Shown here one piece after another: positions 1 through 60,802 of a stretch of 64,000 nt of DNA. The stretch's first letter is position 1, and every line of letters starts with the position of its first letter. Under the pieces are notes generated by a model, which was given only the letters and a program-made list of their open reading frames with translations, searched no databases and was not told the DNA's origin. The position numbers were made by a program, and so were the translations under genes. The DNA is from Arenicola marina (lineage: Eukaryota; Annelida; Polychaeta; Arenicolidae): NCBI GenBank assembly GCA_964019135.1, contig OZ025249.1, forward strand, positions 3,162,001 to 3,226,000, read 5' to 3'.

Positions 1-692
1 GTACGGCATGGGCGGGGGGGGGGGGTTACCTGATGGGCAGAGAGCAGCAGGATGAGCACTGGGAAGACCATCTTGAGGTACGGCATGGGCGGGGGGGGGG
101 GGGGGGTTACCTGATGGGCAGGAGCAGCAGGATGAGCACTGGGAAGACCATCTTGAGGTACGGCATGGGCGGGGGGGTGGGGGGGGGGGTTACCTGATGG
201 CAGGAGCAGCAGGATGAGCACTGGGGGGAAGACCATCTTGAGGTACGGCATGGGCGTGGGGGGGGGGGGTTACCTGATGGGCAGGAGCAGCAGGATGAGC
301 ACTGGGAAGACCATCTTGAGGTACGGCATGGGCGGGGGGGTGGGGGGGGGGGGTTACCTGATGGGCAGGAGCAGCAGGATGAGCACTGGGAAGACCATCT
401 TGAGGTACGGCATGGGCGGGGGGGGTGGGGGGGGGGGGTTACCTGATGGGCAGGAGCAGCAGGATGAGCACTGGGAAGACCATCTTGAGGTACGGCATGG
501 GCGGGGGGGGAGGAGGGGGGTTACCTGATGGGCAGGAGCAGCAGGATGGGCACTGGGAAGACCATCTTGAGGTACGGCATGGGCGGGGGGGGGGGGGGGT
601 TACCTGATGGGCAGGAGCAGCAGGATGAGCACTGGAAGACCATCTTGAGGTACGGCATGGGCGGGGGGAGGGGGGGGGGTTACCTGATGGGC
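1..692 (-). repeat. 71-85 bp array of exon end + donor + C-run (nine copies)
   Basis: Nine copies, spaced 71-85 bases, each hold (minus strand) the coding segment for PYLKMVFPVLILLLLPIR, the donor ATCAG|GTAACC and a C-run of variable length. Copies differ mainly in the length of the C-run (G-run on plus) and rare indels. No copy carries an acceptor, so only the gene-proximal copy can be a true exon. The array continues beyond the left edge and ends at the gap. Confidence 0.9.
684..692 (-). CDS. SLC4A11: 3' end of SLC4A11 last-helix exon (rest lost in gap)
   Basis: The contig edge holds only GCCCATCAG|GTAACC, the end of an exon whose sequence is known from the repeat copies beside it. Those copies translate as PYLKMVFPVLILLLLPIR, matching the last transmembrane segment of human SLC4A11 (PYMKMIFPLIM...PIR). 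The acceptor and upstream part of the exon must lie in the gap. The final exon, encoding the C-terminal tail, would lie to the left of the window. Confidence 0.6.
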
Positions 693-892
693 NNNNNNNN
701 NNNNNNNNNNNNNNNNNNNNNNNNNNNNNNNNNNNNNNNNNNNNNNNNNNNNNNNNNNNNNNNNNNNNNNNNNNNNNNNNNNNNNNNNNNNNNNNNNNNN
801 NNNNNNNNNNNNNNNNNNNNNNNNNNNNNNNNNNNNNNNNNNNNNNNNNNNNNNNNNNNNNNNNNNNNNNNNNNNNNNNNNNNNNNNNNNNN
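693..892. other. Assembly gap, exactly 200 N
   Basis: Exactly 200 N, the same size as the second gap, so a nominal scaffolding gap of unknown true length. It cuts the SLC4A11-like gene between the N-terminal domain and the last helix. Confidence 0.98.
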
Positions 893-962
893 ACCCAGGT
901 TGGCGGGAGACTTGAGACGCGCGATGCCCACGTGACGTCTGGACGCTGACGGCACTGTGCAT
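893..962 (-). CDS. SLC4A11: SLC4A11 N-terminal domain exon 11, cut by assembly gap
   Basis: The exon starts after TCTCTCTTGGCAG in phase 2 (completing a Leu codon) and encodes CTVPSASRRHVGIARLKSP then ANLG before the sequence runs into N. Human SLC4A11 has CTMKALQKRHVCISRL at this point, so the match is strong. The last bases AACCTGG|GT could be a donor right at the contig end, or the exon may continue. The following roughly 350 residues, including most transmembrane helices, should lie beyond this point but are absent from the assembly. Confidence 0.85.
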
Positions 963-1274
963 CTGCCAAGAGAGAAAACATGACGTCATTTCCGGGAATA
1001 TCGCACACGCAGACGAGAGACATTTCCGCGTTGTGCTCCGAGGTAAGAACGCTTCAGTAAGACCATAACTTACCCCCCGGCGATAGCAGGCCGGAAGTCG
1101 AAATAACCGGAAGTCCAGGCTAATTCAGTAGTTATTAGTGGCCTACGTACTTCACGAGACGAACGAGACATTAGGGGGTCGAAGAACGAGAGGATGGACG
1201 AGATGATAGGCGAGATGATAGGCGAGATGATAAAAATATGACAACGGACTAAACATAACAACTCTTTGCGGCAC
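963..1274. other. Unique intron sequence
   Basis: Unique DNA of the intron between exons 10 and 11, with a short GAGATGATAGGC direct repeat near 1200-1230. Nothing else is recognised. Confidence 0.6.
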
Positions 1275-7140: not shown

Positions 7141-7142
7141 CG

Positions 7143-7690
7143 CTACTGAGACACTGGCAGGAAGGCGATCCGGGACACGGACACTGACAAGAGGGCGATC
7201 CAGGACGGGACACTGACAAGAGGGCGATCCTGGACACGGACACTGACAAGAGGGCGATCCAGGACACGGACACTGACAAGAGGGCGATCCTGGACACGGA
7301 CACTGACAAGAGGGCGATCCTGGACACGGACACTGGCAGGAAGGCGATCCGGGACACGGACACTGACAAGAGGGCGATCCAGGACGGGACACTGACAAGA
7401 GGGCAATCCAGGACACGGACACTGACAAGAGGGCGATCCAGGACACGGACACTGACAAGAGGGCGATCCTGGACACGGACACTGACAAGAGGGCGATCCT
7501 GGACACGGACACTGGCAGGAAGGCGATCCGGGACACGGACACTGACAAGAGGGCGATCCAGGACACGGACACTGACAAGAGGGCGATCCAGGACACGGAC
7601 ACTGACAAGAGGGCGATCCAGGACACGGACACTGACAAGAGGGCGATCCTGGACACGGACACTTACAAGAGGGTGATCCAGGACTGATCG
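7143..7690 (-). repeat. 30-bp minisatellite derived from exon 10 end and donor
   Basis: About 17 copies. On the minus strand each reads GGATCGCCCTCTT followed by GTCAGTGTCCGTGTCC. The first copy in gene direction is the 3' end of exon 10 (GGATCACCCTCTT|GTAAGTGTCC). All later copies carry GTCAGT, a weaker donor. Some units carry a CTTCCTGCCAGTG variant at intervals of about 180 bases, hinting at a six-unit higher-order repeat. Confidence 0.9.
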
Positions 7691-7751
7691 TAGTCGAATC
7701 CGCCGCCATAAGATATCGATGTGCCTTGAATAGTCTTTGCCAGTTGGTGAA
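7667..7751 (-). CDS. SLC4A11: SLC4A11 N-terminal cytoplasmic domain exon 10
   Basis: An 85-base exon follows the acceptor TTTTTTGTTGCAG. It enters in phase 1 and leaves in phase 2 at CCCTCTT|GTAAGTG. It encodes (V)HQLAKTIQGTSISYGGG then FDYDQSWITL. This lines up with human HLLSDTIQG...YQQSW, so the match is clear. The donor and about 15 exon bases are repeated downstream as a 30-bp array, but only this first copy has the canonical GTAAGT; the others read GTCAGT. Confidence 0.9.
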
Positions 7752-7879
7752 CTGCAACAAAAAAGAACAAAACGTTGAAGAATGTTTTGAGAAAAACACG
7801 CAAGGACACAAACTCGACAATGACCTACAGCCAGATAAACTAGGAACGAATAAGTTCTGCTTGACTTCTTGGCCTCCTC

Positions 7880-8565
7880 CATGGTCTCGGTGGGGTCTTT
7901 ACCTGAGTCCTGAGTGAAGAGTGACTTCTTGGCATCCTCCGTGGTCTCGGTGGGGACCTTACCTGAGTCGTGAGTGAAGAGTGACTTCTTGGCCTCCTCC
8001 ATGGTCTCGGTGTGGACCTTACCTGAGTCCTGAGTGAATAGTGACTTTTTGGCCTCCTCCATGGTCTCGGTGGGATCCTTACCTGAGTCGTGAGTGAAGA
8101 GTGACTTCTTGGCCTTCTCCATGATCTCGGTGGGGTCCTTACCTGAGTCGTGAGTGAAGAGTAAACTCTTGGCCTCCTCCATGGTCTCGGTGGGGGTCCT
8201 TACCTGAGTCGTGAGCGAAGAGTGAATTATTGGCCTCCTCCATAGTCTCGGTGGGGTCCTTACCTGAGTGGTGAGTAAAGAGTGACTTCTTGGCCTCCTC
8301 CATGGTCTCGGTGGGATCCTTACCTGAGTCGTGAGCGAAGAGTGAATTATTGGCCTCCTCCATAGTCTCGGTGGGGTCCTTACCTGAGTCGTGAGTGAAG
8401 AGTGACTTCTTGGCCTCTTCCATGGTCTCGGTGGGGGTCCTTACCGGAGTCGTGAGTGAAGAGTGACTTCTTGGCCTCCTCCATGATCTCGGTGGGGTCC
8501 TTACCTGAGTCGTGAGTGAAGAGTGACTTCTTGGCCTCTTCCATGGTCTCGGTGGGGTCTTTCTC
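7880..8565 (-). repeat. 60-bp minisatellite derived from exon 9 end and donor
   Basis: Eleven or so units of 60 bases follow exon 9 in gene direction. Each contains coding-like sequence for TMEEAKKSLFTHDS and a donor GACTCAG|GTAAGGACC. The first unit is exonic, where the corresponding junction reads GAGAAAGACC without a GT. Two units have TCAATAATTC-type changes in the coding part, and one donor is altered to TCCG|GTAAGG. Reading through into the array changes frame, so it is not extra coding repeats. Confidence 0.92.
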
Positions 8566-8715
8566 CTCGTTCTTGAGCATGCTCTCCAGCATCTTGTCCA
8601 CGATGTCCTCCACGCTGCTCTCGGACAGGTCCATGATGAGGTGCGCCTGCGCCAGGAAGTTCTCCACGTCCATCGAGGCGCGCACCTCGGCCGAAAAGTC
8701 CTTCATCGGGATCTT
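8505..8715 (-). CDS. SLC4A11: SLC4A11 N-terminal cytoplasmic domain exon 9
   Basis: This exon gives the clearest family match. It enters in phase 0 after CCGGACCTTGCAG, encodes KIPMKDFSAEVRASMD, VENFLAQAHLIMDLSESS, VEDIVDKMLESMLKNEE and KDPTETMEEAKKSLFTHDS, and leaves in phase 1 at GACTCAG|GTAAGG. The pattern K-(N/D)-F-x-x-E-(I/V)-R-A, FLAQA and LFT(H)D matches the human SLC4A11 N-terminal domain. That domain folds in the cytosol and contributes to dimer stability in the SLC4 family. The last 60 bases of the exon are the first copy of a minisatellite, and the intron upstream also carries a tandem array, so the exon has arrays on both sides. Confidence 0.92.
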
Positions 8716-9566: not shown

Positions 9567-12500
9567 TGTACGTCTCTACACATAGGTATGTGGCCAGTGT
9601 AGCAGTCTCTACACATAGGTATGTGGTCAGTGTAGATGACGCTACACACAGGTATGTGGCCAGTGTAGATGACGCTACACATAGGTATGTGGTCAGTGTA
9701 GATGACGCTACACATAGGTATGTGGTCAGTGTATATGACGCTAAACACAGGTATGTGGTCAGTGTAGATGACGCTAGACATAGGTATGTGGCCAGTGTAG
9801 CAGTCTCTACACATAGGTATGTGGTCAGTGTATATGACGCTACACATAGGTATGTGGTCAGTGTAGATGACGCTACACATAGGTATGTGGTCAGTGTAGA
9901 TGACGCTACACATAGGTATGTGGTCAGTGTATATGACGTTACACATAGGTATGTGGTCAGTGTAGATGACGCTACACATAGGTATGTGGCCAGTGTAGAT
10001 GTCTCTACCCATAGGTGTGTGGTCAGTGTAGATGACGCTACACATAGGTATGTGGCCGGTGTAGATGACGCTACACATAGGTATGTGGTCAGTGTATATG
10101 ACGCTATACATAGGTATGTGGTCAGTGTAGATGACGCTAGACATAGGTATGTGGTCAGTGTAGATGACGCTACACATAGGTATGTGGTCAGTGTAGATGA
10201 CGCTACACATAGGTATGTGGTCAGTGTAGATGACGCTACACATAGGTATGTGGTCAGTGTATATGACGCTACACATGGGTATGAGGTCAGTGTAGATGAC
10301 GCTACACATAGGTATGTGGTCAGTGTAGATGACGCTAAACATAGGTATGTGGTCAGTGTAGATGACGCTACACATAGGTGTGTGGTCAGTGTAGATGACG
10401 CTACACATAGGTATGTGGTCAGTGTAGATGACGCTACACATAGGTATGTGGTCAGTGTAGATGACGCTACACATAGGTATGTGGCCCGTGTAGATGACGC
10501 TACACATAGGTATGTGGTCAGTGTAGATGACGCTACACGTAGGCATGTGGTCAGTGTAAGGCGCTACACATAGGTATGTGGCCAGTGTAGATGACGCTAC
10601 ACATAGGTATGTGGCCCGTGTAGATGACGCTACACATAGGTATGTGGTCAGTGTAGATGACGCTACACATAGGTGTGTGGTCAGTGTAGATGACGCTACA
10701 CATAGGTATGTGGTCAGTGTAGATGACGCTACACATGGGTATGTGGTCAGTGTAGATGACGCTACACATAGGTGTGTGGTCAGTGTAGATGACGCTACAC
10801 ATAGGTATGTGGCCAGTGTAGATGACGCTACACATAGGTATGTGGTCAGTGTAGATGACGCTACACATAGGTATGTGGTCAGTGTAGATGTCTCTACCCA
10901 TAGATATGTGGTCAGTAGATGACGCTACACATAGGTATGTGGTCAGCGTAGATGTCTCTACCCATAGATATGTGGTCAGTAGATGACGCTACACATAGGT
11001 ATGTGGTCAGTGTAAGGCGCTACACATAGGTATGTGGCCAGTGTAAGGCGCTACACATAGGTATGTGGTCAGTAGATGACGCTACACATAGGTATGTGGC
11101 CAGTGTAGATGACGCTACACATAGGTATGTGGTCAGTGTAGATGACGCTACACATAGGTATGTGGTCAGTGTAGATGACGCTACACATAGATATGTGGTC
11201 AGTAGATGACGCTACACATAGGTATGTGGCCAGTGTATATGACGCTACACATAGGTATGTGGTCAGTGTAGATGACGCTACACATAGGTATGTGGCCAGT
11301 GTAGATGACGCTACACATAGGTATGTGGTCAGTGTCGATGACGCTACACATAGGTATGTGGCCAGTGTAGATGACGCTACACATAGGTATGTGGCCAGTG
11401 TATATGACGCTACACATAGGTATGTGGTCAGTGTAGATGACGCTACACATAGGTATGTGGCCAGTGTAGATGACGCTACAATAGGTATGTGGCCAGTGTA
11501 GATGACGCTACACATAGGTATGTGGTCAGTGTAGATGACGCTACACATAGGTATGTGGTCAGCGTAGATGTCTCTACCCATAGATATGTGGTCAGTAGAT
11601 GACGCTACACATAGGTATGTGGTCAGTGTAGATGACGCTACACATAGGTATGTGGTCAGCGTAGATGTCTCTACCCATAGATATGTGGTCAGTAGATGAC
11701 GTTACACATAGGTATGTGGCCAGTGTATATGACGCTACACATAGGTATGTGGTCAGTGTAGATGACGCTACACATAGGTATGTGGCCAGTGTAGATGACG
11801 CTACACATAGGTATGTGGTCAGTGTAGATGACGCTACACATAGGTATGTGGTCAGTGTAGATGTCTCTACCCATAGATATGTGGTCAGTAGATGACGCTA
11901 CACATAGGTATGTGGTCAGCGTAGATGTCTCTACCCATAGATATGTGGTCAGTAGATGACGCTACACATAGGTATGTGGTCAGTGTAAGGCGCTACACAT
12001 AGGTATGTGGTCAGTGTAAGGCGCTACACATAGGTATGTGGTCAGTAGATGACGCTACACATAGGTATGTGGCCAGTGTAGATGACGCTACACATAGGTA
12101 TATGGTCAGTGTAGATGACGCTACACATAGGTATGTGGTCAGTGTAGATGACGCTACACATAGGTATGTGGTCAGTGTAGATGTCTCTACACATAGGTAT
12201 GTGGTCAGTGTAGATGACGCTACACATATGTATGTGGTCAGCGTAGATGTCTCTACCCATAGATATGTGGTCAGTAGATGACGCTACACATAGGTATGTG
12301 GCCAGTGTATATGACGCTACACATAGGTATGTGGTCAGTGTAGATGACGCTACACATAGGTATGTGGCCAGTGTAGATGACGCTACACATAGGTATGTGG
12401 CCAGTGTAGATGACGCTACACATAGGTATGTGGCCAGTGTATATGACGCTACACATAGGTATGTGGTCAGTGTAGATGACGCTACACATAGGTATGTGGC

Positions 12501-15500
12501 CAGTGTAGATGACGCTACAATAGGTATGTGGCCAGTGTAGATGACGCTACACATAGGTATGTGGTCAGTGTAGATGACGCTACACATAGGTATGTGGTCA
12601 GCGTAGATGTCTCTACCCATAGATATGTAGTCAGTAGATGACGCTACACATAGGTATGTGGTCAGTGTAGATGACGCTACACATAGGTATGTGGTCAGCG
12701 TAGATGTCTCTACCCATAGATATGTGGTCAGTAGATGACGTTACACATAGGTATGTGGCCAGTGTATATGACGCTACACATAGGTATGTGGTCAGTGTAG
12801 ATGACGCTACACATAGGTATGTGGCCAGTGTAGATGACGCTACACATAGGTATGTGGTCAGTGTCGATGACGCTACACATAGGTATGTGGCCAGTGTAGA
12901 TGACGCTACACATAGGTATGTGGCCAGTGTATATGACGCTACACATAGGTATGTGGTCAGTGTAGATGACGCTACACATAGGTATGTGGCCAGTGTAGAT
13001 GACGCTACACATAGGTATGTGGCCAGTGTAGATGACGCTACACATAGGTATGTGGCCAGTGTAGATGACGCTACACATAGGTATGTGGGCAGTGTAGATG
13101 ACGCTACACATAGGTATGTGGCCAGTGTAGATGACGCTACACATAGGTATGTGGTCAGTGTAGATGACGCTACACCTAGGTATGTGGCCAGTGTAGATGA
13201 CGCTACACATAGGTATGTGGCCAGTGTAGATGACGCTACACATAGGTATGTGGCCAGTGTAGATGACGCTACACATAGGTATGTGGTCAGTGTAGATGAC
13301 GCTACATATAGGTATGTGGCCAGTGTAGATGACGCTACACATAGGTATGTGGGAGGGTAGATGACGCTACACATATGTGTGTGGTCAGTGTAGATGACGC
13401 TACACATAGGTATGTGGTCAGTGTAGATGACGCTACACATAGGTATGTGGTCAGTGTAGATGTCTCTACCCATAGGTATGTGGCCAGTGTAAGGCGCTAC
13501 ACATAGGTGTGTGGTCAGTGTAGATGACGCTACACATAGGTGTGTGGTCAGCGTAGATGACGCCACACATAGGTATGTGGTCAGTGTAGATGACGCTAAA
13601 CATAGGTGTGTGGTCAGTGTAGATGACGCTACACATAGGTATGTGGTCAGTGTAGATGACGCTACACATAGGTGTGTGGTCAGTGTAGATGACGCCACAC
13701 ATAGGTATGTGGTCAGTGTAGATGACGCTACACATAGGTGTGTGGTCAGTGTAGATGACGCTACACATAGGTATGTGGTCAGTGTAAGGCGCTACACATA
13801 GGTATGTGGTCAGTGTAGATGACGCCACACATAGGTATGTGGCCAGTGTAGATGACGCTACACATAGGTATGTGGTCAGTGTAGATGACGCTACACATAG
13901 GTATGTGGTCAGTGTAGATGTCTCTACCCATAGGTGTGTGGTCAGTGTATATGACGCTACACATAGGTGTGGTCAGTGTAGATGACGCTACACATAGGTA
14001 TGTGGTCAGTGTAGATGACGCCACACATAGGTATGTGGTCAGTGTAGATGACGCTACACATAGGTATGTGGCCAGTGTAGATGACGCCACACATAGGTAT
14101 GTGGTCAGTGTAGATGACGCTACACATAGGTATGTGGCCAGTGTAGATGTCTCTACCCATAGGTGTGTGGTCAGTGTATATGACGCTACACATAGGTGTG
14201 GTCAGTGTAGATGACGCTACACATAGGTATGTGGTCAGTGTAGATGACGCTACACATAGGTATGTGGTCAGTGTAGATGACGCTACACACAGGTATGTGG
14301 TCAGTGTAGATGTCTCTACCCATAGGTATGTGGTCAGCGTAGATGACGCTACACATAGGTATGTGGTCAGTGTAAGGCGCTACACATAGGTATGTGGTCA
14401 GTGTAGATGACGCTACACATAGGTATGTGGTCAGTGTAGATGACGCTACACATAGGTGTGTGGTCAGTGTAGATGACGCCACACATAGGTATGTGGTCAG
14501 TGTAGATGACGCTACACACAGGTGTGTGGTCAGTGTAGATGACGCTACACATAGGTATGTGGTCAGTGTAAGGCGCTACACATAGGTATGTGGTCAGTGT
14601 AGATGACGCCACACATAGGTATGTGGTCAGTGTAGATGACGCTACACATAGGTGTGTGGTCATTGTAGATGACGCTACCCATAGGTATGTGGTCAGTGTA
14701 GATGACGCTACACATAGGTATGTGGTCAGTGTAAGGCGCTACACATAGGTATGTGGTCAGTGTAGATGACGCTACACAAAGGTATGTGGTCAGTGTAAGG
14801 CGCTACACATAGGTGTGTGGTCAGTGTAGATGACGCTACACATAGGTATGTGGTCAGTGTAAGGCGCTACACATAGGTATGTGGTCAGTGTAGATGACGC
14901 TACACATAGGTATGTGGTCAGTGTATATGACGCTACACATAGGTATGTGGTCAGTGTAGATGTCTCTACCCATAGGCATGTGGTCAGCGTAGATGACGCC
15001 ACACATAGGTATGTGGTCAGTGTAGATGACGCTACACATAGGTATGTGGTCAGTGTAGATGTCTCTACCCATAGGCATGTGGTCAGCGTAGATGACGCTA
15101 CACATAGGTATGTGGCCAGTGTAGATGACGCTACACATAGGTATGTGGTCAGTGTAGATGACGCTACACATAGGTATGTGGTCAGTGTAAGGCGCTACAC
15201 ATAGGTATGTGACCCGTGTAGATGACGCTACACATAGGTATGTGGTCAGTGTAGATGTCTCTACCCATAGGCATGTGGTCAGCGTAGATGACGCTACACA
15301 TAGGTATGTGGCCAGTGTAGATGACGCTGCACATAGGTATGTGGTCAGCGTAGATGACGCTACACATAGGTATGTGGCCAGTGTAGATGACGCTACACAT
15401 AGGTATGTGGTCAGTGTAAGGCGCTACACATAGGTATGTGGTCAGTGTAGATGACGCTACACATAGGTATGTGGTCAGTGTAGATGACGCTACACATAGG

Positions 15501-20048: not shown

Positions 20049-20086
20049 CTCGTGTCTGGAGTACATCAGGGATACCTCGTCCCCAT
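20049..20086 (-). CDS. SLC4A11: SLC4A11-like coding exon 8, start of conserved cytoplasmic domain
   Basis: A 38-base exon with acceptor TTTGCTTCAG|ATGGGG and donor CACGAG|GTAAGTG. It enters in phase 1, leaves in phase 0, and encodes (D)GDEVSLMYSRHE. This lines up loosely with the human segment GCVLLHTSRK directly before the conserved KNF motif, and the next exon begins with KIPMKDF. The phase-0 exit matches the phase-0 entry of the 8.7-kb exon, although 11 kb of minisatellite lies between them. Confidence 0.75.
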
Positions 20087-21027: not shown

Positions 21028-21059
21028 CGTCTACGGGCGGTTTTAATCCGTTTTTATCA
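21028..21059 (-). CDS. SLC4A11: SLC4A11-like coding exon 7
   Basis: A 32-base exon with a strong acceptor (TTCTCTTTCAG|TGATAAAA) and donor (TAGACG|GTAAGTG). Only phase 2 entry is free of stops, giving (F)DKNGLKPPVD and leaving in phase 1. Both ends fit the neighbouring exons. It precedes the conserved domain by one small exon and occupies the place of the vertebrate segment just upstream of the first conserved strand. It lies about 19 kb from the previous exon, across the largest array in the window. Confidence 0.7.
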
Positions 21060-37190: not shown

Positions 37191-38530
37191 AGGGGCCGGA
37201 GAAGGACTGTGGGATTGGGGGAGGGGGGCACCGAGGGAGAGGGTGAAGCGGAGACCCAGAGGCGACGGCAAGCTGGACAATTGGGTTGACAGGTGTCTCT
37301 ATAAGGTTGACAGAACACCTTGCCGACAGTGTGTCCAGTCTCTGCTCTCCGGACAGTCCGACACATGATGAACGACGCGACATCGCTCTCATCACATAAA
37401 GAACACAGTCGCCGTCTCGCCAGTTGCCTCCCCCCCCCCCAACCCCACCCACCCCCACCTCCCCCATCCTCCCCGTCGTAAACTGTCAACTTCCACCACT
37501 TGGGGTCGCCACAGGCGCCGGGCACGTCACAAGGTTAGAATGTGGGATCACGCTGGCGCGGGGCGTCAAGAAGGCCACTGGGTGGATTCGTGTTTTCAGC
37601 CACATTTTTGGCCCAAGGAGAAACGAGAAGTGTTTGACATACGATTAGCGTGAGAGGATGTCCCTGTGGGAAACAGGAATCCCCCCACCCGCCAGTCAAC
37701 CACTGATCTTATTGTGTAGTAATTGGTCTCGGGGATCCTGTCTACCGCATAGCGTCCTTACCCCATCACGTGATGATTCAACTTTAAATGGGCATTAAGT
37801 TACACAAACAAATACCTTTAAATGGCGTTACGCCATGCTAAATAATGAGTGGTGGCTGTCTGGCCTCGCCTTCCTGGTCCGTCACGCTTTGTGAGAGGCA
37901 GGAACTATATTAGGGCTGAGCCCCCCACAACAGTAACCAGACACATAACGCCCTAAGTTGTGTGATACCTCCAGCGTGACACTGCCTTAGGACACCTAAG
38001 GCTCGTCCGCCGGCTTCACCGTATGCAGCCCGAGCCACGCATCTCCAGCTTCGGGTGGGTGCGCGTCACGCACTCCAGGCCGATGGCTTCAGGCGCAATC
38101 CTTTAGATAATAGGACACAATAGTCATTACCGCCATCCAGCTTAGACCGACCCCCAACATTCCGTCGTTTTACAAGAGCGGAACAGATGCGTACCAGCTG
38201 TATTTGCAAATGGATTTGGTAAATATCGACGCCATTTGATGCACTATGCCTGCGTACTAGTGTCCCCTGGTATGTAGGCTGGGTGCCTATCTCTGCGCTA
38301 CCCATGATATATAGGGTCTATCGATAATCGCGGGGATGTGATCAATAAACCAATCGATCAGTTTTTTATAGTTTTTCAACATGATTTAGAACATCTCAAT
38401 GTGCAAAGACAACATGAGCGAAACATCCATTATATCAGGAAAACGTTCTATTCGTTACCATAGAGTCGCCAAGAGAAAGGTAAACAAAGTGAATGCGAAG
38501 TCACTTTAATATGCATGAGCATTACTTTAT
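37191..38530. other. Unique intron sequence
   Basis: Mixed DNA with a C-run near 37430. A minus-strand open stretch at 38066-38305 has no homology I recognise and only a weak donor, so it is not called. Nothing else is evident. Confidence 0.55.
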
Positions 38531-38536: not shown

Positions 38537-40341
38537 TGAAGTCCACGTATGACCCAGGGTCGAGGGCTGAGACCTTACAAGTCCACGTATGACCCAGGGT
38601 CGAGGGCTGAGACCTTACAAGTCCACGTATGACCCAGGGTCGAGGGCTGAGACCTTACAAGCCCACGTATGACCCAGGGTCGAGGGCTGAGACCTTACAA
38701 GTCCACGTATGACCCAGGGTCGAGGGCTGAGACCTTACAAGTCCACGTATGACCCAGGGTCGAGGGCTGAGACCTTACAAGTCCACGTATGACCCAGGGT
38801 CGAGGGCTGAGACCTTACAAGTCCACGTATGACCCAGGGTCGAGGGCTGAGACCTTACAAGTCCACGTATGACCCAGGGTCGAGGGCTGAGACCTTACAA
38901 GTCCACGTATGACCCAGGGTCGAGGGCTGAGACCTTACAAGTCCACGTATGACCCAGGGTCGAGGGCTGAGACCTTACAAGCCCACGTATGACCCAGGGT
39001 CGAGGGCTGAGACCTTACAAGTCCACGTATGACCCAGGGTCGAGGGCTGAGACCTTACAAGTCCACGTATGACCCAGGGTCCAGGGCTGAGACCTTACAA
39101 GTCCACGTATGACCCAGGGTCGAGGGCTGAGACCTTACAAGTCCACGTATGACCCAGGGTCGAGGGCTGAGACCTTACAAGACCACGTATGACCCAGGGT
39201 CGAGGGCTGAGACCTTACAAGTCCACGTATGACCCAAGGTCGAGGGCTGAGACCTTACAAGTCCACGTATGACACAGGGTCGAGGGCTGAGACCTTACAA
39301 GTCCACGTATGACCCAGGGTCGAGGGCTGAGACCTTACAAGTCCACGTATGACCCAGGGTCGAGGGCTGAGACCTTACAAGTCCACGTATGACCCAGGGT
39401 CGAGGGCTGAGACCTTACAAGTCCACGTATGACCCAGGGTCGAGGGCTGAGACCTTACAAGTCCACGTATGACCCAGGGTCGAGGGCTGAGACCTTACAA
39501 GTCCACGTATGACCCAGGGTCGAGGGCTGAGACCTTACAAGTCCACGTATGACCCAGGGTCGAGGGCTGAGACCTTACAAGTCCACGTATGACCCAGGGT
39601 CGAGGGCTGAGACCTTACAAGTCCACGTATGACCCAGGGTCGAGGGCTGAGACCTTACAAGTCCACGTATGACCCAGGGTCGCGGGCTGAGACCTTACAA
39701 GTCCACGTATGACCCAGGGTCGAGGGCTGAGACCTTACAAGTCCACGTATGACCCAGGGTCGAGGGCTGACCCCTTACAAGTCCACGTATGACTCAGGGT
39801 CGAGGGCTGAGACCTTACAAGTCCACGTATGACCCAGGGTCGCGGGCTGAGACCTTACAAGTCCACGTATGACCCAGGGTCGAGGGCTGAGACCTTACAA
39901 GTCCACGTATGACCCAGGGTCGAGGGCTGAGACCTTACAAGTCCACGTATGACCCAGGGTCGAGGGCTGAGACCTTACAAGTCCACGTATGACCCAGGGT
40001 CGAGGGTTGAGACCTTACAAGTCCACGTATGACCCAGGGTCGAGGGCTGAGACCTTACAAGTCCACGTATGACCCCGGGTCGAGGGCTGAGACCTTACAA
40101 GTCCACGTATGACCCAGGGTCGAGGGCTGAGACCTTACAAGTCCACGTATGACCCCGGGTCGAGGGCTGAGACCTTACAAGTCCACGTATGACCCAGGGT
40201 CGAGGGCTGAGACCTTACAAGTCCACGTATGACCCAGGGTCGAGGGCTGAGACCTTACAAGTCCACGTATGACCCAGGGTCGAGGGCTGAGACCTTACAA
40301 GTCCACGTATGACCCAGGGTCGAGGGCTGAGACCTTGCAAG
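38537..40341 (-). repeat. 40-bp minisatellite derived from exon 6 and its donor, about 45 copies
   Basis: The units are almost identical and contain (minus strand) GTAAGGTCTCAGCCC, TCGACCCTGGGTCATACG and TGGACTT. The gene-proximal unit is exon 6. Every intronic unit carries GGACTT|GTAAGG, so about 44 equivalent donors follow the real one. The unit also contains the palindrome GACCC-A-GGGTC. Substitutions are few and scattered, so the array is young or well homogenised. Confidence 0.96.
40299..40341 (-). CDS. SLC4A11: SLC4A11-like coding exon 6, founder copy of the 40-bp array
   Basis: The exon is 43 bases, starts after the acceptor GGTGATGCAG, enters in phase 1 and leaves in phase 2 at ACTT|GTAAGG. 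It encodes (A)CKVSALDPGSYVD and completes a Phe codon with the next exon. It equals one 40-bp repeat unit plus three bases: it begins with CTTGCAAGG, while the intron starts with the same unit carrying CTTGTAAGG. A single C-to-T difference therefore separates exonic sequence from a splice donor. The phase change from 1 to 2 is exactly what the next exon requires, which is strong support for this placement. Confidence 0.75.
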
Positions 40342-42154: not shown

Positions 42155-42334
42155 CTACAATGAGTGTCTAGCAGGTCACATTTGTTTGTCATGACATGGC
42201 CGAACTAGGTCAGAGTTTTGGGCGTACCTCATGTACGTGTACTGTATATGGCAAGCCAAGATCCCAAGATCCCGAAGGCAATAGACTACATGTGTTTGAG
42301 ATTCTACTCTGAGTGCCATGTGGTGCTCTGGGCC

Positions 42335-42562
42335 CGCCCCAACCCATCACCATGTGACACTTACCCCGATCTGGATCCGCCCCAACCCATCACCACGTGA
42401 CACTTACCCCGCTCTGGATCCGCCCCAACCCATCACCACGTGACACTTACCCCAATCTGGATCCGCCCCAACCCATCACCACGCGACACTTACCCCGCTC
42501 TTGATCCGTCCCAACCCATCACCACGTGACACTTACCCCGCTCTGGATCCGTCCCGGGTGCC
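42335..42562 (-). repeat. 43-bp array derived from exon 4 end and donor, five copies
   Basis: On the minus strand each unit has GGATCCAGAGCGGG|GTAAGTG and TCACGTGGTGATGGGTTGG. The gene-proximal copy is the 3' end of exon 4. Five donors with GTAAGTG are present. Each unit contains an E-box palindrome CACGTG (one unit changed to CACGCG). Confidence 0.9.
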
Positions 42563-42587
42563 GCTGCGCCATTAGGAACAACTTTAA
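42537..42587 (-). CDS. SLC4A11: SLC4A11-like coding exon 4, first copy of a 43-bp array
   Basis: This 51-base exon has acceptor TTTATTTACAG|TTAAAG and donor GAGCGGG|GTAAGTGTC, phase 1 at both ends, and encodes (V)KVVPNGAAAPGTDPER. Its last 14 or so bases and its donor are repeated downstream as a short tandem array, so five nearly identical donors follow one another. Only the gene-proximal copy has an acceptor. No function can be assigned beyond being part of the hydrophilic N-terminal tail. Confidence 0.65.
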
Positions 42588-43216: not shown

Positions 43217-43337
43217 CCTCCGTCAGGGACCACTGGGAGCTGTGTTCTCGCCACAGACGCTGCCCCGTCGGCGCGTCCGGCGACACCAGGATCAGACTGG
43301 AGTTTTCCATCTTGGACTCGCGCTCCCTCTCCGCCAT
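43217..43337 (-). CDS. Possible alternative first exon with its own ATG
   Basis: An open segment starts at an ATG (MAERERESKMENSSLILVSP), reads DAPTGQRLWREHSSQWSLTE, and ends at a strong donor ACGGAGG|GTAAGCC in phase 1. No AG acceptor in a usable phase lies upstream, so it cannot be an internal exon of the phase-1 chain. With the ATG as start it joins the 42.5-kb exon in frame, making a Val codon across the junction. A block of GGGGCGG boxes lies about 400 bases upstream in gene direction. SLC4A11 in vertebrates is known to have alternative first exons, which makes a short-tailed isoform plausible. There is no transcript evidence. Confidence 0.5.
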
Positions 43338-44187: not shown

Positions 44188-44387
44188 NNNNNNNNNNNNN
44201 NNNNNNNNNNNNNNNNNNNNNNNNNNNNNNNNNNNNNNNNNNNNNNNNNNNNNNNNNNNNNNNNNNNNNNNNNNNNNNNNNNNNNNNNNNNNNNNNNNNN
44301 NNNNNNNNNNNNNNNNNNNNNNNNNNNNNNNNNNNNNNNNNNNNNNNNNNNNNNNNNNNNNNNNNNNNNNNNNNNNNNNNNNNNNNN
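44188..44387. other. Assembly gap, exactly 200 N
   Basis: Exactly 200 N inside a G/A-rich array, with the same repeat on both sides. It lies in the intron between exons 2 and 3. Confidence 0.98.
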
Positions 44388-46831: not shown

Positions 46832-47563
46832 CATCACAGTCGGGGTAGTTGACGGTGAGGGTGGACTCCCTCAGCTCGAGGGGTGACTGGTTGACGGCCA
46901 GCAGGCTGCCGCTTGGGGTCATCATCACGGCTTTGTTGTGCAGCTGGTTGTTGGAGCCGTACATGCGGATGTCTCGCAGCATGATTCCGTCCTTGGTCGG
47001 CGAGTTGGGCGCCGTGGACACCTCGTCGTAGGTGATGGCGGGCGGGTTGAGGGAGTACCTCCCCCGCCCGTCATGCATACTGTTGCCGCGCAACCCGAAG
47101 CCGTCCCTGGTGGGGGTGGGGGAGCGGGAGCGGGAGGGGATCTCCGTGATGGTGCCCGAGGCGCCGTACCCCCGGGGGGAGCGGGAGCGCCCCCGCCGCT
47201 GGTCCGACCCCCCCGCCCCGGGGGAGGGCGACCGGCCGCGGGGGTTACTGCCCCCCGCCACGGGGATCTCCAGGTGCTGCTCTGCGCCGTCCTGGGGGCC
47301 CGTCACCAGTGTCTGGGGCGGCTCGGGGTGGGGGTCGCCCCCTGGGGGGTGGGTGGCGGCTACCGGGGCGGCGGGGGTGGCGGGGCCGGCGCCCTGGCCC
47401 CCCTGCCCGGTGTCGGGATTCAGGAGGGACTCCTTCTCGCGCTTGCCCGGTCGGTCCGTCATGGTTGGTGTGGGGCCTGGTGGGGCGCCTGGTGTGGGGT
47501 CTGGTGGGGCGGTAGGGGTGCTGGGGGCTTCACCCTCAAGCTCTTCCTCAAAGACCGGATTTT
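46832..47563 (-). CDS. SLC4A11: SLC4A11-like coding exon 2, disordered cytoplasmic tail
   Basis: This 732-base exon has a clear acceptor (GATATCTTTACAG) and donor (TGATG|GTAAGCACC) and is phase 1 at both ends. It encodes about residues 35-278: an acidic start (ENPVFEEELEGEAPS), a Pro-rich stretch, an Arg/Ser-Pro section (RGRSPSPGAGG, RGRSRSPRGYG, SRSRSPTPTRDG), then a less repetitive end (ITYDEVSTAPNSPTKDG, DIRMYGSNNQLHN, STLTVNYPDCD). No transmembrane helix or fold is evident. The many Ser-Pro and Arg-x-x-Ser sites suggest a phosphorylated cytoplasmic tail, which is inference. The exon is GC-rich and uses normal codons, unlike the repeats around it. The open frame continues upstream into AT-rich DNA, which I treat as intron. 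Human SLC4A11 has no comparable region that I know of. Confidence 0.75.
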
Positions 47564-49610: not shown

Positions 49611-49619
49611 ACGGGGCTC

Positions 49620-52600
49620 TCAGACTGGGCCAGGACGACGGTCTATTACAGGTCCGGTGCTCTCAGACTGTGTCAGGACGACGGTCTATTACAGGTCTGG
49701 TGCTCTCAGACTGTGTCAGGGCGACGGTCTATTACAGGTCTGGTGCCCTCAGACTGTGTCAGGGCGACGGTCTATTACAGGTCAGATGCTCTCAGACTGA
49801 GTCAAGACGACGGTCTATTACAGGTCTGGTGCTCTCAGACTGTGTCAGGACGACGGTCTATTAGAGGTCTGGTGCTCTCAGACTGTGTCAGGACGACGGT
49901 CTATTACAGGTCTGGTGCTCTCAGACTGTGTCAGGGCGACGGTCTATTACAGGTCTGGTGCCCTCAGACTGTGTCAGGACGACGGTCTATTACAGGTCTG
50001 GTGCTCTCAGACTGTGTCAGGACGACGGTCTATTAGAGGTCTGGTGCTCTCAGACTGAGTCAAGACGACGGTCTATTACAGGTCTGGTGATCTCAGACTG
50101 AGTCAAGACGACGGTCTATTACAGGTCTGGTGCTCTCAGACTGGGTCAGGGCGACGGTCTATTACAGGTCTTGTGCTCTCAGACTGTCAGGACGACGGTC
50201 TATTACAGGTCTGGTGCTCTCAGACTGTGTCAGGACGACGGTCTATTAGAGGTCTGGTGCTCTCAGACTGAGTCAAGACGACGGTCTATTACAGGTCTGG
50301 TGATCTCAGACTGAGTCAAGACGACGGTCTATTACAGGTCTGGTGCTCTCAGACTGGGTCAGGGCGACGGTCTATTACAGGTCTGGTGCTCTCAGACTGG
50401 GTCAGGGCGACGGTCTATTACAGGTCTGGTGCTCTCAGACTGGGTCAGGACGACGGCCTATCACAGGTCTGGTGGTCTCAGACTGTGTCAGGACGACGGT
50501 CTATTACAGGTCTGGTGCTCTCAGACTGTGTCAAGACGACGGTCAATTACAGGTCTGGTGCTCTCAGACTGTGTCAGGACGACGGCCTATCACAGGTCTG
50601 GTGGTCTCAGACTGTGTCAGGGCGACGGTCTATTACAGGTCTGGTGCTCTCAGACTGTGTCAGGACGACGGTCTATTACAGGTCTGGTGCTCTCAGACTG
50701 TGTCAGGGCGACGGTCTATTACAGGTCTGGTGCTCTCAGACTGTGTCAGGACGACGGCCTATCACAGGTCTGGTGGTCTCAGACTGTGTCAGGGCGACGG
50801 TCTATTACAGGTCTGGTGCTCTCAGACTGTGTCAGGGCGACGGTCTATTACAGGTCTGGTGCTCTCAGACTGTGTCAGGGCGACGGTCTATTACAGGTCT
50901 GGTGCTCTCAGACTGTGTCAGGGCGACGGTCTATTAGAGGTCTGGTGCTCTCAGACTGTGTCAGGACGACGGCCTATCACAGGTCTGGTGGTCTCAGACT
51001 GTATCAGGGCGACGGTCTATTACAGGTCTGGTGCTCTCAGACTGTGTCAGGGCGACGGTCTATTACAGGTCTGGTGCTCTCAGACTGTGTCAGGGCGACG
51101 GTCTATTACAGGTCTGGTGCTCTCAGACTGTGTCAGGGCGACGGTCTATTACAGGTCTGGTGCTCTCAGACTGTGTCAGGGCGACGGTCTATTACAGGTC
51201 TGGTGCTCTCAGACTGTGTCAGGACGACGGCCTATCACAGGTCTGGTGGTCTCAGACTGTGTCAGGGCGACGGTCTATTACAGGTCTGGTGCTCTCAGAC
51301 TGTGTCAGGGCGACGGTCTATTACAGGTCTGGTGCTCTCAGACTGTGTCAGGGCGACGGTCTATTACAGGTCTTGTGCTCTCAGACTGTCAGGACGACGG
51401 TCTATTACAGGTCTGGTGCTCTCAGACTGTGTCAGGACGACGGTCTATTACAGGTCTGGTGCTCTCAGACTGAGTCAAGACGACGGTCTATTACAGGTCT
51501 GGTGATCTCAGACTGAGTCAAGACGACGGTCTATTACAGGTCTGGTGCTCTCAGACTGGGTCAGGGCGACGGTCTATTACAGGTCTGGTGCTCTCAGACT
51601 GGGTCAGGGCGACGGTCTATTACAGGTCTGGTGCTCTCAGACTGGGTCAGGACGACGGCCTATCACAGGTCTGGTGGTCTCAGACTGTGTCAGGACGACG
51701 GTCTATTACAGGTCTGGTGCTCTCAGACTGTGTCAGGGCGACGGTCTATTACAGGTCTGGTGCTCTCAGACTGTGTCAGGACGACGGCCTATCACAGGTC
51801 TGGTGGTCTCAGACTGTGTCAGGGCGACGGTCTATTACAGGTCTGGTGCTCTCAGACTGTGTCAGGACGACGGTCTATTACAGGTCTGGTGCTCTCAGAC
51901 TGTGTCAGGACGACGGTCTATTACAGGTATTGTGCTCTCAGACTGTCAGGACGACGGTCTATTACAGGTCTGGTGCTCTCAGACTGTGTCAGGACGACGG
52001 TCTATTAGAGGTCTGGTGCTCTCAGACTGAGTCAAGACGACGGTCTATTACAGGTCTGGTGATCTCAGACTGAGTCAAGACGACGGTCTGTTACAGGTCT
52101 GGTGCTCTCAGACTGGGTCAGGGCGACGGTCTATTACAGGTCTGGTGCTCTCAGACTGGGTCAGGGCGACGGTCTATTACAGGTCTGGTGCTCTCAGACT
52201 GGGTCAGGACGACGGCCTATCACAGGTCTGGTGGTCTCAGACTGTGTCAGGACGACGGTCTATTACAGGTCTGGTGGTCTCAGACTGTGTCAGGACGACG
52301 GTCTATTACAGGTCCGGTGCTCTCAGACTGTGTCAGGACGACGGTCTATTACAGGTCTGGTGCGCTCAGACTGTGTCAGGACGACGGTCTATTAGAGGTC
52401 CGGTGCTCTCAGACTGTGTCAGGGCGACGGTCTATTAGAGGTCTGGTGCTCTCAGACTGTGTCAGGACGACGGTCTATTACAGGTGTAATGCTCTCAGAC
52501 TGTGTCAGGACGACGGTCTATTACAGGTCTGGTGCTCTCAGACTGTGTCAGGACGACGGTCTATTACAGGTCTGGTGCTCTTAGACTGTGTCAGGGCGAC

Positions 52601-55600
52601 GGTCTATTACAGGTCTGGTGCTCTCAGACTGTGTCAGGGCGACGGTCTATTAGAGGTCCTATGGTCTCAGACTGGGTCAGGACGACGGTCTGTTACAGGT
52701 CTGGTGCTCTCAGACTGTGGCATGGCGACGGTCTATTACAGGTCTGGTGCTCTCAGACTGTGTCAGGGCGACGGTCTATTACAGGTCTGGTGCTCTCAGA
52801 CTGTGTCAGGACGACGGTCTATTACAGGTCTGGTGCTCTCAGACTGTGTCAGGGCGACGGTCTATTACAGGTCTGGTGCTCTCAGACTGTGTCAGGGCGA
52901 CGGTCTATTACAGGTCTGGTGCTCTCAGACTGAGTCAAGACGACGGTCTATTACAGGTCTGGTGCTCTCAGACTGTCAGGACGGCGGTCTATTACAGGTC
53001 TGGTGCTCTCAGACTGTGTCAGGACGACGGTCTATTAGAGGTCTGGTGGTCTCAGACTGTGTCAGGACGACGGTCTATTAGAGGTCTGGTGGTCTCAGAC
53101 TGTGTCAGGACGACGGTCTATTACAGGTCTGGTGCTCTCAGACTGTGTCAGGACGACGGTCTATTACAGGTCTGGTGCTCTCAGACTGTGTCAGGACGAC
53201 GGTCTATTAGAGGTCTGGTGGTCTCAGACTGTGTCAGGACGACGGTCTATTACAGGTCTGGTGCTCTCAGACTGTGTCAGGACGACGGTCTATTACAGGT
53301 CTGGTGGTCTCAGACTGTGTCAGGACGACGGTCTATTACAGGTCTGGTGCTCTCAGACTGGGTCAGGACGACGGTCTATTACAGGTCTGGTGCTCTCAGA
53401 CTGTGTCAGGGCGACGGTCTATTACAGGTCTGGTGCTCTCAGACTGTGTCAGGGCGACGGTCTGTTACAGGTCTGGTGCTCTCAGACTGTGTCAGGACGA
53501 CGGTCAATTACAGGTCTGGTGCTCTTAGACTGTGTCAGGGCGACGGTCAATTACAGGTCTGGTGCTCTCAGACTGTGTCAGGGCGACGGTCTATTACAGG
53601 TCTGGTGCTCTTAGACTGTGTCAGGGCGACGGTCTATTACAGGTCTGGTGCTCTCAGACTGTGTCAGGGCGACGGTCTATTACAGGTCTGGTGCTCTTAG
53701 ACTGTGTCAGGGCGACGGTCTATTACAGGTCTGGTGCTCTCAGACTGTGTCAGGGCGACGGTCTATTAGAGGTCTGGTGGTCTCAGACTGGGTCAGGACG
53801 ACGGTCTATTACAGGTCTGGTGCTCTCAGACTGTGTCAGGACGACGGTCAATTACAGGTCTGGTGCTCTCAGACTGTGTCAGGGCGACGGTCTATTACAG
53901 GTCTGGTGCTCTCAGACTGTGTCAGGGCGACGGTCTATTACAGGTCTGGTGCTCTCAGACTGTGTCAGGGCGACGGTCTATTACAGGTCTGGTGCTCTCA
54001 GACTGGGTCAGGACGACGGCCTATCACAGGTCTGGTGGTCTCAGACTGTGTCAGGACGACGGTCTATTACAGGTCTGGTGGTCTCAGACTGTGTCAGGAC
54101 GACGGTCTATTACAGGTCCGGTGCTCTCAGACTGTGTCAGGACGACGGTCTATTACAGGTCTGGTGCGCTCAGACTGTGTCAGGACGACGGTCTATTAGA
54201 GGTCCGGTGCTCTCAGACTGTGTCAGGGCGACGGTCTATTAGAGGTCTGGTGCTCTCAGACTGTGTCAGGACGACGGTCTATTACAGGTGTAATGCTCTC
54301 AGACTGTGTCAGGACGACGGTCTATTACAGGTCTGGTGCTCTCAGACTGTGTCAGGACGACGGTCTATTACAGGTCTGGTGCTCTTAGACTGTGTCAGGG
54401 CGACGGTCTATTACAGGTCTGGTGCTCTCAGACTGTGTCAGGGCGACGGTCTATTAGAGGTCCGGTGGTCTCAGACTGGGTCAGGACGACGGTCTGTTAC
54501 AGGTCTGGTGCTCTCAGACTGTGGCATGGCGACGGTCTATTACAGGTCTGGTGCTCTCAGACTGTGTCAGGGCGACGGTCTATTACAGGTCTGGTGCTCT
54601 CAGACTGTGTCAGGGCGACGGTCTATTACAGGTCTGGTGGTCTCAGACTGGGTCAGGACGACGGTCTGTTACAGGTCTGGTGCTCTCAGACTGTGTCAGG
54701 GCGACGGTCTATTACAGGTCTGGTGCTCTTAGACTGTGTCAGGGCGACGGTCTATTACAGGTCTGGTGCTCTCAGACTGTGTCAGGGCGACGGTCTATTA
54801 GAGGTCTGGTGGTCTCAGACTGGGTCAGGACGACGGTCTGTTACAGGTCTGGTGCTCTCAGACTGTGGCATGGCGACGGTCTATTACAGGTCTGGTGCTC
54901 TCAGACTGTGTCAGGGCGACGGTCTATTACAGGTCTGGTGCTCTCAGACTGTGTCAGGACGACGGTCTATTACAGGTCTGGTGCTCTCAGACTGTGTCAG
55001 GGCGACGGTCTATTACAGGTCTGGTGCTCTCAGACTGTGTCAGTATGACGGTCTATTACAGGTCTGGTGCTCTCAGACTGTCAGGACGGCGGTCTATTAC
55101 AGGGTCTGGTGCTCTCAGACTGTGTCAGGACGACGGTCTATTAGAGGTCTGGTGGTCTCAGACTGTGTCAGGACGACGGTCTATTAGAGGTCTGGTGCTC
55201 TCAGACTGTGTCAGGACGACGGTCTATTACAGGTCTGGTGCTCTCAGACTGTGTCAGGACGACGGTCTATTACAGGTCTGGTGGTCTCAGACTGTGTCAG
55301 GACGACGGTCTATTAGAGGTCTGGTGGTCTCAGACTGTGTCAGGACGACGGTCTATTACAGGTCTGGTGCTCTCAGACTGTGTCAGGACGACGGTCTATT
55401 ACAGGTCTGGTGGTCTCAGGCTGTGTCAGGACGACGGTCTATTACAGGTCTGGTGCTCTCAGACTGGGTCAGGACGACGGTCTATTACAGGTCTGGTGCT
55501 CTCAGACTGTGTCAGGGCGACGGTCTATTACAGGTCTGGTGCTCTCAGACTGTGTCAGGGCGACGGTCTATTACAGGGTTGGTGCTCTCAGACTGGGTCA

Positions 55601-55845
55601 GGACGACGGTCTGTTACAGGTCTGGTGCTCTCAGACTGTCAGGACGGCGGTCTATTACAGGTCTGGTGCTCTCAGACTGTGTCAGGACGACGGTCTATTA
55701 CAGGTCTGGTCCTCTCAGACTGGGTCAGGGCGACGGTCTATTACAGGTCTGATGCCCTCAGACTGGGCCAGGACGCCGCAGACTGGGTCAGGACGCAGCA
55801 GACTGGGTCAGGACGCCGCAGACTGGGTCAGGGCGACTGTGTATT
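49620..55845. repeat. 43-bp minisatellite, about 144 copies
   Basis: Each unit contains GGTCTGGTGCTCTCAGACTG, TGTCAGGACGACGGTC and TATTACAG on the plus strand. Variants (GGGCGACGG, GAGTCAAGACG, GTGGTCTCAG, CTATCACAG) recur in ordered blocks; one block near 52.1-52.4 kb recurs 1,804 bases downstream. The right end decays into shorter GACTGGGTCAGGACGCCGCA units. It lies in the intron between exons 1 and 2. Confidence 0.96.
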
Positions 55846-57715: not shown

Positions 57716-58050
57716 ACAAGGGCGCCTAGGTAACCAGGCACGAGGCACGAGGCGCCAAGGTAACCAGTCACGAGACGCCTAGGTAACCAGGCATGAGGGC
57801 AGACAGACGGAGAACAACACCAGGCCAAGATGGCGGAGAGGTAGGTCAAACGGAGAACAACACCAGACCAAGATGGCGGAGAGGTAGGTCATACGGAGAA
57901 CAACACCAGACCAAGATGGCAGAGAGCTAGGTCATACGGAGAACAACACCAGGCCAATATGGCAGAGAGGTAGGTCATACGGAGAACAACACCAGGCCAA
58001 GATTGGCGGCGAGGTAGGTCAAATGGAGAACAAGACTAGGCCAAGATGGG
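57716..58050. repeat. Short GGTAACCAG repeat and a 43-bp array with AAGATGGCGG
   Basis: Three copies of AGGTAACCAGGCACGAG at 57729-57795 are followed by five or six 43-bp units carrying GGAGAACAACACCAG, CCAAGATGGCGGAGAGG and TAGGTCATA. Each unit holds AAGATGGCGG, a YY1-like word, and GAGAG|GTAGGT, a plus-strand donor-like site. Confidence 0.85.
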
Positions 58051-58844: not shown

Positions 58845-59310
58845 TAGAACGTGTTCGATTTACCTGAAACCGACGGGAACCCGAAACCGTTTTTTAAACT
58901 GGTTTCAACGGTTTGCCCACCTTAAGGCGAACGCATAGTTTACATTTGTGTACAGTTTCAGCGTGTATTGGCAATGGCCACGTGCTTATGGAGTTAATGA
59001 TAATATGCCGTCTGTTTCATGTTCTACTCGCGATTGGAACGTCCGTTCATAAATTAATATCATACTTTTGTCCAGAAGTCTCTATTAGGCTACATTATAT
59101 TTATGATTAACTGGTGAATGTGTTGATTGAACGGATAGTTCTGCGGAACCGAAACAGTCAAACCAGGGCCCATAAGTTCGAAACGGCCGGGGCCAAATAT
59201 TTCGCCCCGCTCCATGCTAATGTCCTATTCTAGGGCGAATTAATTAGCTCGGCCGTTTCGAACTTACGGGCCCAGCTCTCTTCATAGTTTTTACGGTTTC
59301 GAGCAAACCG
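58845..59310. mobile_element. Dispersed repeat, copy B, carrying a TIR insertion
   Basis: The second copy of the repeat seen at 48.2 kb, with the same ordered words (ACCTGAAACCGA, GGTTTGCCCACC, ACAGTTTCAG, AGAAGTCTCTATT, GGAACCGAAACAGTC). It differs by substitutions, small indels and one 109-base insertion. Ends are approximate; no coding capacity is seen. Confidence 0.65.
59167..59272. mobile_element. 106-bp MITE-like element with TIRs and CAG target duplication
   Basis: The left end starts GGCCCATAAGTTCGAAACGG and the right end is its inverted complement with one mismatch (ends ...TTCGAACTTACGGGCC), giving TIRs of about 23 bases. CAG lies directly on both sides. The homologous sequence at 48461-48475 (CAAACCAGCTCTC) has a single CAG and no insert, so it is a natural empty site. 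There is no coding capacity; mobilisation would need a transposase in trans. Confidence 0.75.
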
Positions 59311-60005
59311 GTTTCGCCGGAAGCAAGTACTAAGACTATATCGAAGATGATTTCTTTATCATGAGCTCTACCACAATGAGCTAGCGAGGCTAAAACTAAA
59401 ATGCACTTTTCGTGCGTACGCTACGTGTGGTGTATAGGGCCAGCTGGACAATACTAGGCTGTTATTGTTCACTGTACGTTCTGGGCTTATAAATTGACGG
59501 GCAGAGCTTTTCTGGTGTTTTTATCGTGAAGCTATGAAGTGAAGGACAAAGTTTGCATGAGTTTGTAAGCAGGCTGAGCTTGGCACCTTGACACCCGCAT
59601 CGCTTGTTCCCTACCAGGTGTCAGGAAGGGGTAAATGGCGACACGTGACACAGGCATATTTCAAAATCGATATTCGACATTGAGCCCCAAGTTTCGACAC
59701 TAATCTGAAAAAGCGACATTCACACAGATTTGTGCCCAAAAAAAACCCACGGAATTTAGCCAAAATGCGTTTCGTGAAAAATCGACATTCGACACTGAGA
59801 ATTTTGAAAAATCGACACTGAACACAGGAACGTCGCTTTCACATCCCTTCTACTTGGACAACGAGTGGCAGAACAGACCACTTCGACCATTTCGCTGTGG
59901 TAAGTGTTTTCTCCATTAATGTTGATAGCAGGTGAGATCATCCTCGGGGGGACAGTGTCCGGGTGCGAGCTCCTGATCTTAGTTACCCTCTTGTTATGGT
60001 TAGCC
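59311..60005. other. Unique intron sequence
   Basis: Mixed DNA with several ATCGACATTCGACAC words at 59660-59830 forming a small irregular repeat. No exon was found. Confidence 0.5.
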
Positions 60006-60795
60006 AACCCTAGGTCTGGACCCCCAGGGCCGGGACCCCCAGGGCCGGGACCCCCAGGGCCGGGACCCCCAGGGCCGGGACCCCCAGGCCCGGTACCTCC
60101 AGGTCCGGGACCCCCAGGCCCGGTACCTCCAGGTCCGGGACCCCCAGGTCCGGGACCCCCAGGTCCGGGACCCCCAGGTCCGGGACCCCCAGGTCCGGTA
60201 CCTCCAGGTCGGGACCCCCAGGTCGGGACCCCCAGGGCCTGGACCCCCAGGTCCGGGACCCCCAGGTCTGGTACCACCAGATCCGGTACCCCAGGTCCGG
60301 TACCCCCAGGGCCGATCCCCTAGGGCCGAGCCCCCAGGCCGGTACCCCCAGGTCCGGTTCCCCCAGGGCCGGGACCCCCAGGGCCGGGACCCCCACGGCC
60401 GGGACCACCAGGTCCGGGACCCACAGGTCCGGGACCCACAGGTCCGGGACCCCCAGGTCCGGTACCTCCAGGTCGGGACCCCCAGGTCGGGACCCCCAGG
60501 GCCTGGACCCCCAGGTCCGGGACCCCCAGGTCTGGTACCACCAGATCCGGTACCCCAGGTCCGGTACCCCCAGGGCCGATCCCCTAGGGCCGAGCCCCCA
60601 GGCCGGTACCCCCAGGTCCGGTTCCCCCACGGCCGGGACCACCAGGTCCGGGACCCACAGGTCCGGGACCCCCAGGTCCGGCATCCCCACGGCCGGGACC
60701 CCCAGGTCCGGGACCCCCAGGGCCGGTACCCCCAGGGCCGGTACCCCCAGGGCCGAGACCTCCAGGGCCGGGACCCCCACATCAGCCTCACTGTC
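60006..60795. repeat. 15-bp GGTCCGGGACCCCCA array next to exon 1
   Basis: About 52 units of CCCAGGTCCGGGACC type, with GGTACC and GGGCCGG variants. A block of about 300 bases (60.18-60.33 kb) recurs at 60.46-60.62 kb. In gene direction the array starts a few bases after the exon 1 donor with TGAGGCTGATGTGGGGGTCC; exon 1 itself has GAGGCTGATGTGGAGG and GACCTGGGGGGTCCCGG, so the array appears to be derived from exon 1. Confidence 0.9.
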
Positions 60796-60802
60796 CACCT
60801 AC

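Follow-up and report, generated by a model that had tools for sequence, protein, structure and literature searches.

Minisatellites spanning splice junctions in an SLC4A11-type gene and at other exon ends of the annelid Arenicola marina

The stretch of the Arenicola marina genome considered here, referred to as the window, comprises 64,000 nucleotides of contig OZ025249.1 in assembly GCA_964019135.1 (positions 3,162,001 to 3,226,000; C2:3162001-3226000) and holds part of an SLC4A11-type gene encoded on the minus strand. COX1 of the assembly, translated with the invertebrate mitochondrial code, lies closest to annelid sequences among the 120 listed of 7999 hits (Pilargis wolfi, of the Phyllodocida, at 92%, followed by clusters labelled Phyllodocida, Saccocirridae, and Namalycastis at 89-91%), and a lancelet origin was rejected on this ground. 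Tandem arrays account for 45.5 of the 64 kb when 22 hand-merged arrays are counted and some short rows from Tandem Repeats Finder (TRF) are omitted. At five of ten exon ends of the gene (684, 7667, 8505, 40299, and 42537), a tandem array begins the intron, and its unit includes the last bases of the exon plus the splice donor. A preliminary description of this DNA had proposed such arrays at these five positions, and all five are confirmed, four by alignment scores, TRF, and a listing of the copies and the one at 684 by its donor sites and by similarity to Capitella. The donors of exons E4, E5, E8, and E9 sit in the exon-side edge unit of the respective array, while the edge copy of E10 enters a run of N.

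The 51-bp exon E4 (42537..42587) ends with its donor inside a 43-bp array of 5.4 copies (42325..42555), the unit of which consists of about 19 exon bases, GTAAGT, and intron sequence. Counting the exon-adjacent site here and in the following cases, GTAAGT is present at five sites. The 43-bp exon E5 (40299..40341) is itself one unit copy, exceeding by 3 bases the unit of a 40-bp array with 45 copies and 98% matches (38539..40341), in which CTT/GTAAGG (the slash marks the exon end) occurs 44 times. The last ~55 bases of E8 (8505..8715) and its donor lie inside a 60-bp array of 11.6 copies (7862..8559), and the donor GT is kept in 11 of 11 scanned sites, ten reading GTAAGG and one GTAAAG. E9 (7667..7751) likewise ends with its donor inside an array, here of 30-bp units in 17.9 copies (7150..7684). 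The exonic copy carries GTAAGT, which is absent from all 17 later copies; GTCAGT stands at 14 later sites. Thus, the earlier statement that the later copies each repeat the donor holds for E4, E5, E8, and E10 but fails for E9. At E10, a unit of ~82 bp made of the exon end, the donor, and a C-run is present in 8.4 copies within the window (1..692) and extends below base 1; at 684, the N run truncates the copy.

Junctions were scored with a probe that joined the 40 terminal bases of the exon, or all of it where it is shorter, to 10 intron bases; this probe was aligned to the next 250 intron bases. The scores were 27 for E4, 48 for E5, 50 for E8, and 24 for E9. A null set of 150 array-free positions had a median of 8, a 99th percentile of 16.6, and a maximum of 24. 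The E9 score merely equals this maximum; the array is nonetheless plain from TRF and the copy listing. E10 could not be scored, as its exonic copy falls inside the 200-N gap at 693..892, and this case rests on nine CAG/GTAACC sites in the window, the spacing to the last exon, and Capitella identity across the splice. No junction array was found at E2, E3, E6, and E7, which scored 8, 9, 8, and 9, nor at the window's acceptors, seven of seven tested scoring 5-9 and the eighth, that of the last exon, being judged by eye. The exon end at 60803, which had been put forward as a probable further case, is not one: its exon-to-intron likeness scores 18, just over the 99th percentile, the donor lies outside the match, and the unit of the nearby 15-bp array (60018-60779) does not include the donor either. 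When each of the 22 hand-merged arrays is collapsed to one unit, chance would place a junction in an array at a rate of 4.6% per junction, so that five of ten donors correspond to P = 4e-5; inclusion of about ten omitted short TRF arrays gives ~5.3% and P = 8e-5. Both values overstate the case, since the window was picked for looking striking.

The exon model is drawn from reading frames and homology. E1, E2, and E4-E9 join in frame. The segment E8-E9 matches SLC4A11 in PDB (7x1g, E = 3.5e-7) and the Capitella protein P0011, with 61 of 98 identical residues (62%) in a match that spans the splice. E10 and the last exon, which lies just below base 1 of the window and 66 bases after the donor-like site of the last repeat, together match the Capitella C-terminus with 26 of 38 identities across their splice. 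The splices at 8505 and 684 are thus supported by the Capitella orthologue. E5 is the least certain exon, because its acceptor is weak (score -0.2); its start is uncertain, and the array stops exactly at the proposed first exon base. An alternative E5 acceptor at 40358 was rejected for being out of frame with E6. The transmembrane exons that should lie between E9 and E10 were located neither with PF00955 (51 genome matches, none on C2) nor with the Capitella query, which had nine genome matches and on C2 hit only E8 and E9. The evidence that the gap at 693-892 hides sequence or joins its flanks wrongly is weak, because neither search picked up E10 or the last exon, which are short. The window contains two gaps of exactly 200 N, 693-892 and 44188-44387, both at arrays. 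A Pfam scan of the assembled protein returned no family.

The remaining exons, all on the minus strand, complete the picture. E1 (60803..60910; donor CAG/GTAGGT) is a candidate first exon, and no homologue was found that backs its coding status. The 732-bp exon E2 (46832..47563) has the homologues P0008, P0009, P0010, P0012, and P0013. In P0008 (ENA contig of 9004 bases), the E2 homologue seems to be read on beyond its donor, where a 25-residue repeat occurs four times; the donor is not part of the unit. E3 (43217..43337) begins with ATG and is a candidate alternative first exon, having the same phase into E4 as E2. E4 is absent from the homologues seen. E6 (21028..21059) and E7 (20049..20086) follow, the latter encoding DGDEVSLM in common with Ixodes P0002. 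On the plus strand, opposite to the gene, a 43-bp array of 5.6 copies (57807-58049) has the unit AAGATGGCGGAGAG/GTAGGT with an ATG and a donor-like site and is perhaps an antisense first exon with its own junction array. At 61700-61835 lies a sequence that, judged by eye, seems tRNA-derived and resembles short interspersed elements; it directly abuts a 45-bp array (61833-64000).

To place the window in context, exon ends were surveyed across the 867-Mb assembly (762 contigs) at loci located with PF00955 (SLC4; 51 of 51 matches examined) and PF00225 (kinesin; 53 of 133 examined, a 54th being entered but not placed). From these 104 matches, 69 donors with a score of at least 3 and 90 acceptors with a score of at least 1 were kept. 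The sample therefore covers two gene families, its exon ends are inferred from profile matches and not from transcripts, donors were weighted by human frequencies, and the acceptor score is an ad hoc one. Excluded as probable contaminants were five kinesin loci (L047, L048, L050, L051, and L056) on the small contigs C390, C504, and C536. Their matches contain several in-frame TAA and TAG codons and resemble those of a contaminant, perhaps a ciliate, that reads these as amino acids. An acceptor at L080 (0.99) and a donor at L063 (below 3) missed the cut-offs and are not counted.

Junction-spanning duplications were found at 11 of the 69 donors (9/64 and 2/5 in the two survey batches) and at 8 of the 90 acceptors (7/82 and 1/8); with TRF arrays alone, the counts are 7/64 and 6/82. 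Arrays with a period of at least 8 make up 27.5% of the sampled patches. In the kinesin locus L057, the end of an exon recurs with its donor as a 69-bp unit in ~30 copies, and in L063, where the locus ends within the array, a 93-bp unit is present at least 17 times. Further cases are a 42-bp unit in 3.7 copies at L030 and an acceptor array of 59 bp and 20 copies at L034, and two kinesin exons, at L087 and at C10:22888960-22889091, are flanked by junction arrays on either side. Tandem duplications that span splice junctions are thus real and recur elsewhere in the genome, at donors as well as acceptors.

Comparable duplications also occur at 168 of 3000 non-exonic control positions (5.6%), which becomes 7.1% once the positions are GC-matched to the donors; the matched positions were all scored in the donor orientation, and the resulting rate serves for acceptors too. 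Exon interiors showed none (0/90). Acceptors are not significantly enriched over the matched background (P = 0.31), and the difference between donors and acceptors is not significant either (Fisher P = 0.22 and 0.31). Donor-like motifs outside matched exons, a control without GC matching, were affected in 6 of 184 cases.

Comparisons with other sequences suggest that the introns look older than the arrays, because the E8 position and one SLC4 donor occur without an array elsewhere. The predictions P0003-P0007 from other sequences, three of them (P0005-P0007) near-identical, all cross the E8 donor at the same residue, HDS/G. Two SLC4 paralogues on C20 share the donor TGATG/GTGAGTC, one (L033) with a two-copy array and the other (L032) without. 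For these two introns, an intron position older than the array is therefore supported. Two inverted SLC4 gene copies on C18 (26250000-26260000 and 26380000-26394000) have the same donor with 3.7 units (TRF) in one and ~1.6 units (by eye) in the other; their flanks align at 96.6% identity over 1458 bases on one side and at 89.8% on the other. At eight of nine array-spanned survey donors, the exception being C14:6743157, the exon contains no more than one unit, in line with growth being allowed on the intron side alone.

The arrays are probably splice-junction-spanning minisatellites of the kind described as mirages in lancelets, arising by ordinary minisatellite birth with no function needed. 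A segment of ~30 to 120 bp that happens to straddle an existing exon end would be tandemly duplicated, and slippage or unequal exchange would later enlarge the array. Splicing presumably uses the exon-side donor; the extra copies would then leave with the intron, and the mRNA would stay intact. Coding selection would freeze the exonic copy, while the remaining copies may drift or homogenise. Array birth would be widespread in the genome, with copies inside exons being purged. A junction duplication would decay more slowly, its exonic copy being under selection, and this could alone raise detection at junctions.

Several results weigh against such a purely passive origin. The donor frequency of 11/69 exceeds the GC-matched 7.1% (P = 0.009), and the excess persists when one of the two duplicated C18 genes is left out (10/63, P = 0.013). 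Real donors are affected more often than donor-like motifs (10/63 versus 6/184, P = 0.0013), although detection bias could give part of this difference. The SLC4A11 gene itself is unusual, with five of ten donors and none of eight acceptors affected (Fisher P = 0.036). Survival and detection bias would both be needed to cover the donor excess and this skew.

A possible, though clearly less likely, explanation is that minisatellites arise preferentially at real exon-intron junctions, donors in particular, and are triggered by the true junction and not by the donor motif as DNA. Candidates for such a trigger are co-transcriptional R-loops, a paused polymerase, a bound spliceosome, or the step in composition from exon to intron. 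The donor excesses over background and over donor-like motifs speak for it, as may the G- or C-runs located behind the donor in the E10, L057, and L063 units. The donor motif itself does not seem to be the trigger, because look-alikes outside exons are not enriched and acceptors are also affected. On the other side, acceptors stay near background, the frozen copy prolongs the time over which a junction duplication can be detected relative to one inside an intron, the donor-like control is not GC-matched, and the sample consists of two gene families. Of the earlier idea that a process starts at junctions, the excess of real donors over motifs keeps some possibility alive; the duplications are not specific to donors (11/69 versus 8/90).

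Selection for U1 binding arrays that guard long introns against premature polyadenylation, also proposed at the outset, is very unlikely. A donor-like GT is indeed retained in nearly all copies of four of the five window arrays. However, the longest arrays of the window (9576-19955, 23244-37196, and 49616-55832; 10, 14, and 6 kb) have no good donor on the gene strand, the later copies at E9 have lost GTAAGT, and acceptor arrays exist. Away from the five confirmed junctions, just one of 16 array units (41937) contains a good donor. Equally improbable is an origin of the introns themselves from a tandemly duplicated exon segment containing AGGT, which had likewise been raised. The units do contain exon plus donor, as that model predicts (PMC4974935, PMC3087553), but the E8 intron position and the SLC4 paralogue donor occur without arrays, and the arrays do not include the acceptors used at E8-E9 and E10-E11. 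An assembly artefact with wrong copy numbers or array positions is hardly credible, for although both 200-N gaps lie at arrays and the transmembrane exons were not found, the copies carry substitution differences and the pattern is present on several chromosomes.

The closest known parallel to these junction-spanning minisatellites is the lancelet mirage, described as a minisatellite-like tandem duplication of exon-intron boundaries at both ends, with many repeats carrying splice signals and regular splicing seemingly undisturbed (PMC3087553). Mirages are reported for Adh3, troponin C, globin, and PGBD5, four genes or gene families, of which PMC3902484 names the Adh, troponin C, and PGBD5 cases. 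The annelid arrays fit the structural definition: they span the exon-intron boundary with an exonic edge copy, many repeats carry splice signals, the later E9 copies being the exception, and both 5' and 3' boundaries are affected, the 3' ones only elsewhere in the genome, since the window has donor cases only. As to length instability between haplotypes or cells, a further trait of mirages, the comparison covered one pair of duplicated genes, which differ in copy number. The annelid arrays differ in belonging to an annelid and not a cephalochordate, in reaching up to 45 copies, in occurring several times in one gene, and in having a rate measured with controls; protein homology spans two of the annelid splices. 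The AGGT intron-gain model likewise involves a duplicated segment across an exon-intron boundary (PMC4974935), whereas the annelid introns look older than their arrays and their exons still end at the original donor. In human duplicated genes, minisatellites formed by internal tandem repeats also occur at exon-intron boundaries and are said to form new introns in recent primate paralogues (PMC2812944), whereas the annelid arrays seem to lengthen existing introns. In an earthworm metallothionein gene, intronic minisatellites and exon duplications missing from the transcript are described (PMC12783039). No annelid mirage was recognised in the literature searched, although one may have been published elsewhere. 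The mirage accounts consulted concern lancelets gene by gene. In an annelid with about one sixth of donors affected in a two-family sample, the birth rate of such arrays and their avoidance of exon interiors become measurable. This system could also show whether splicing copes with dozens of near-identical donors in succession, which bears on intron lengthening and on the choice of a donor among equals.
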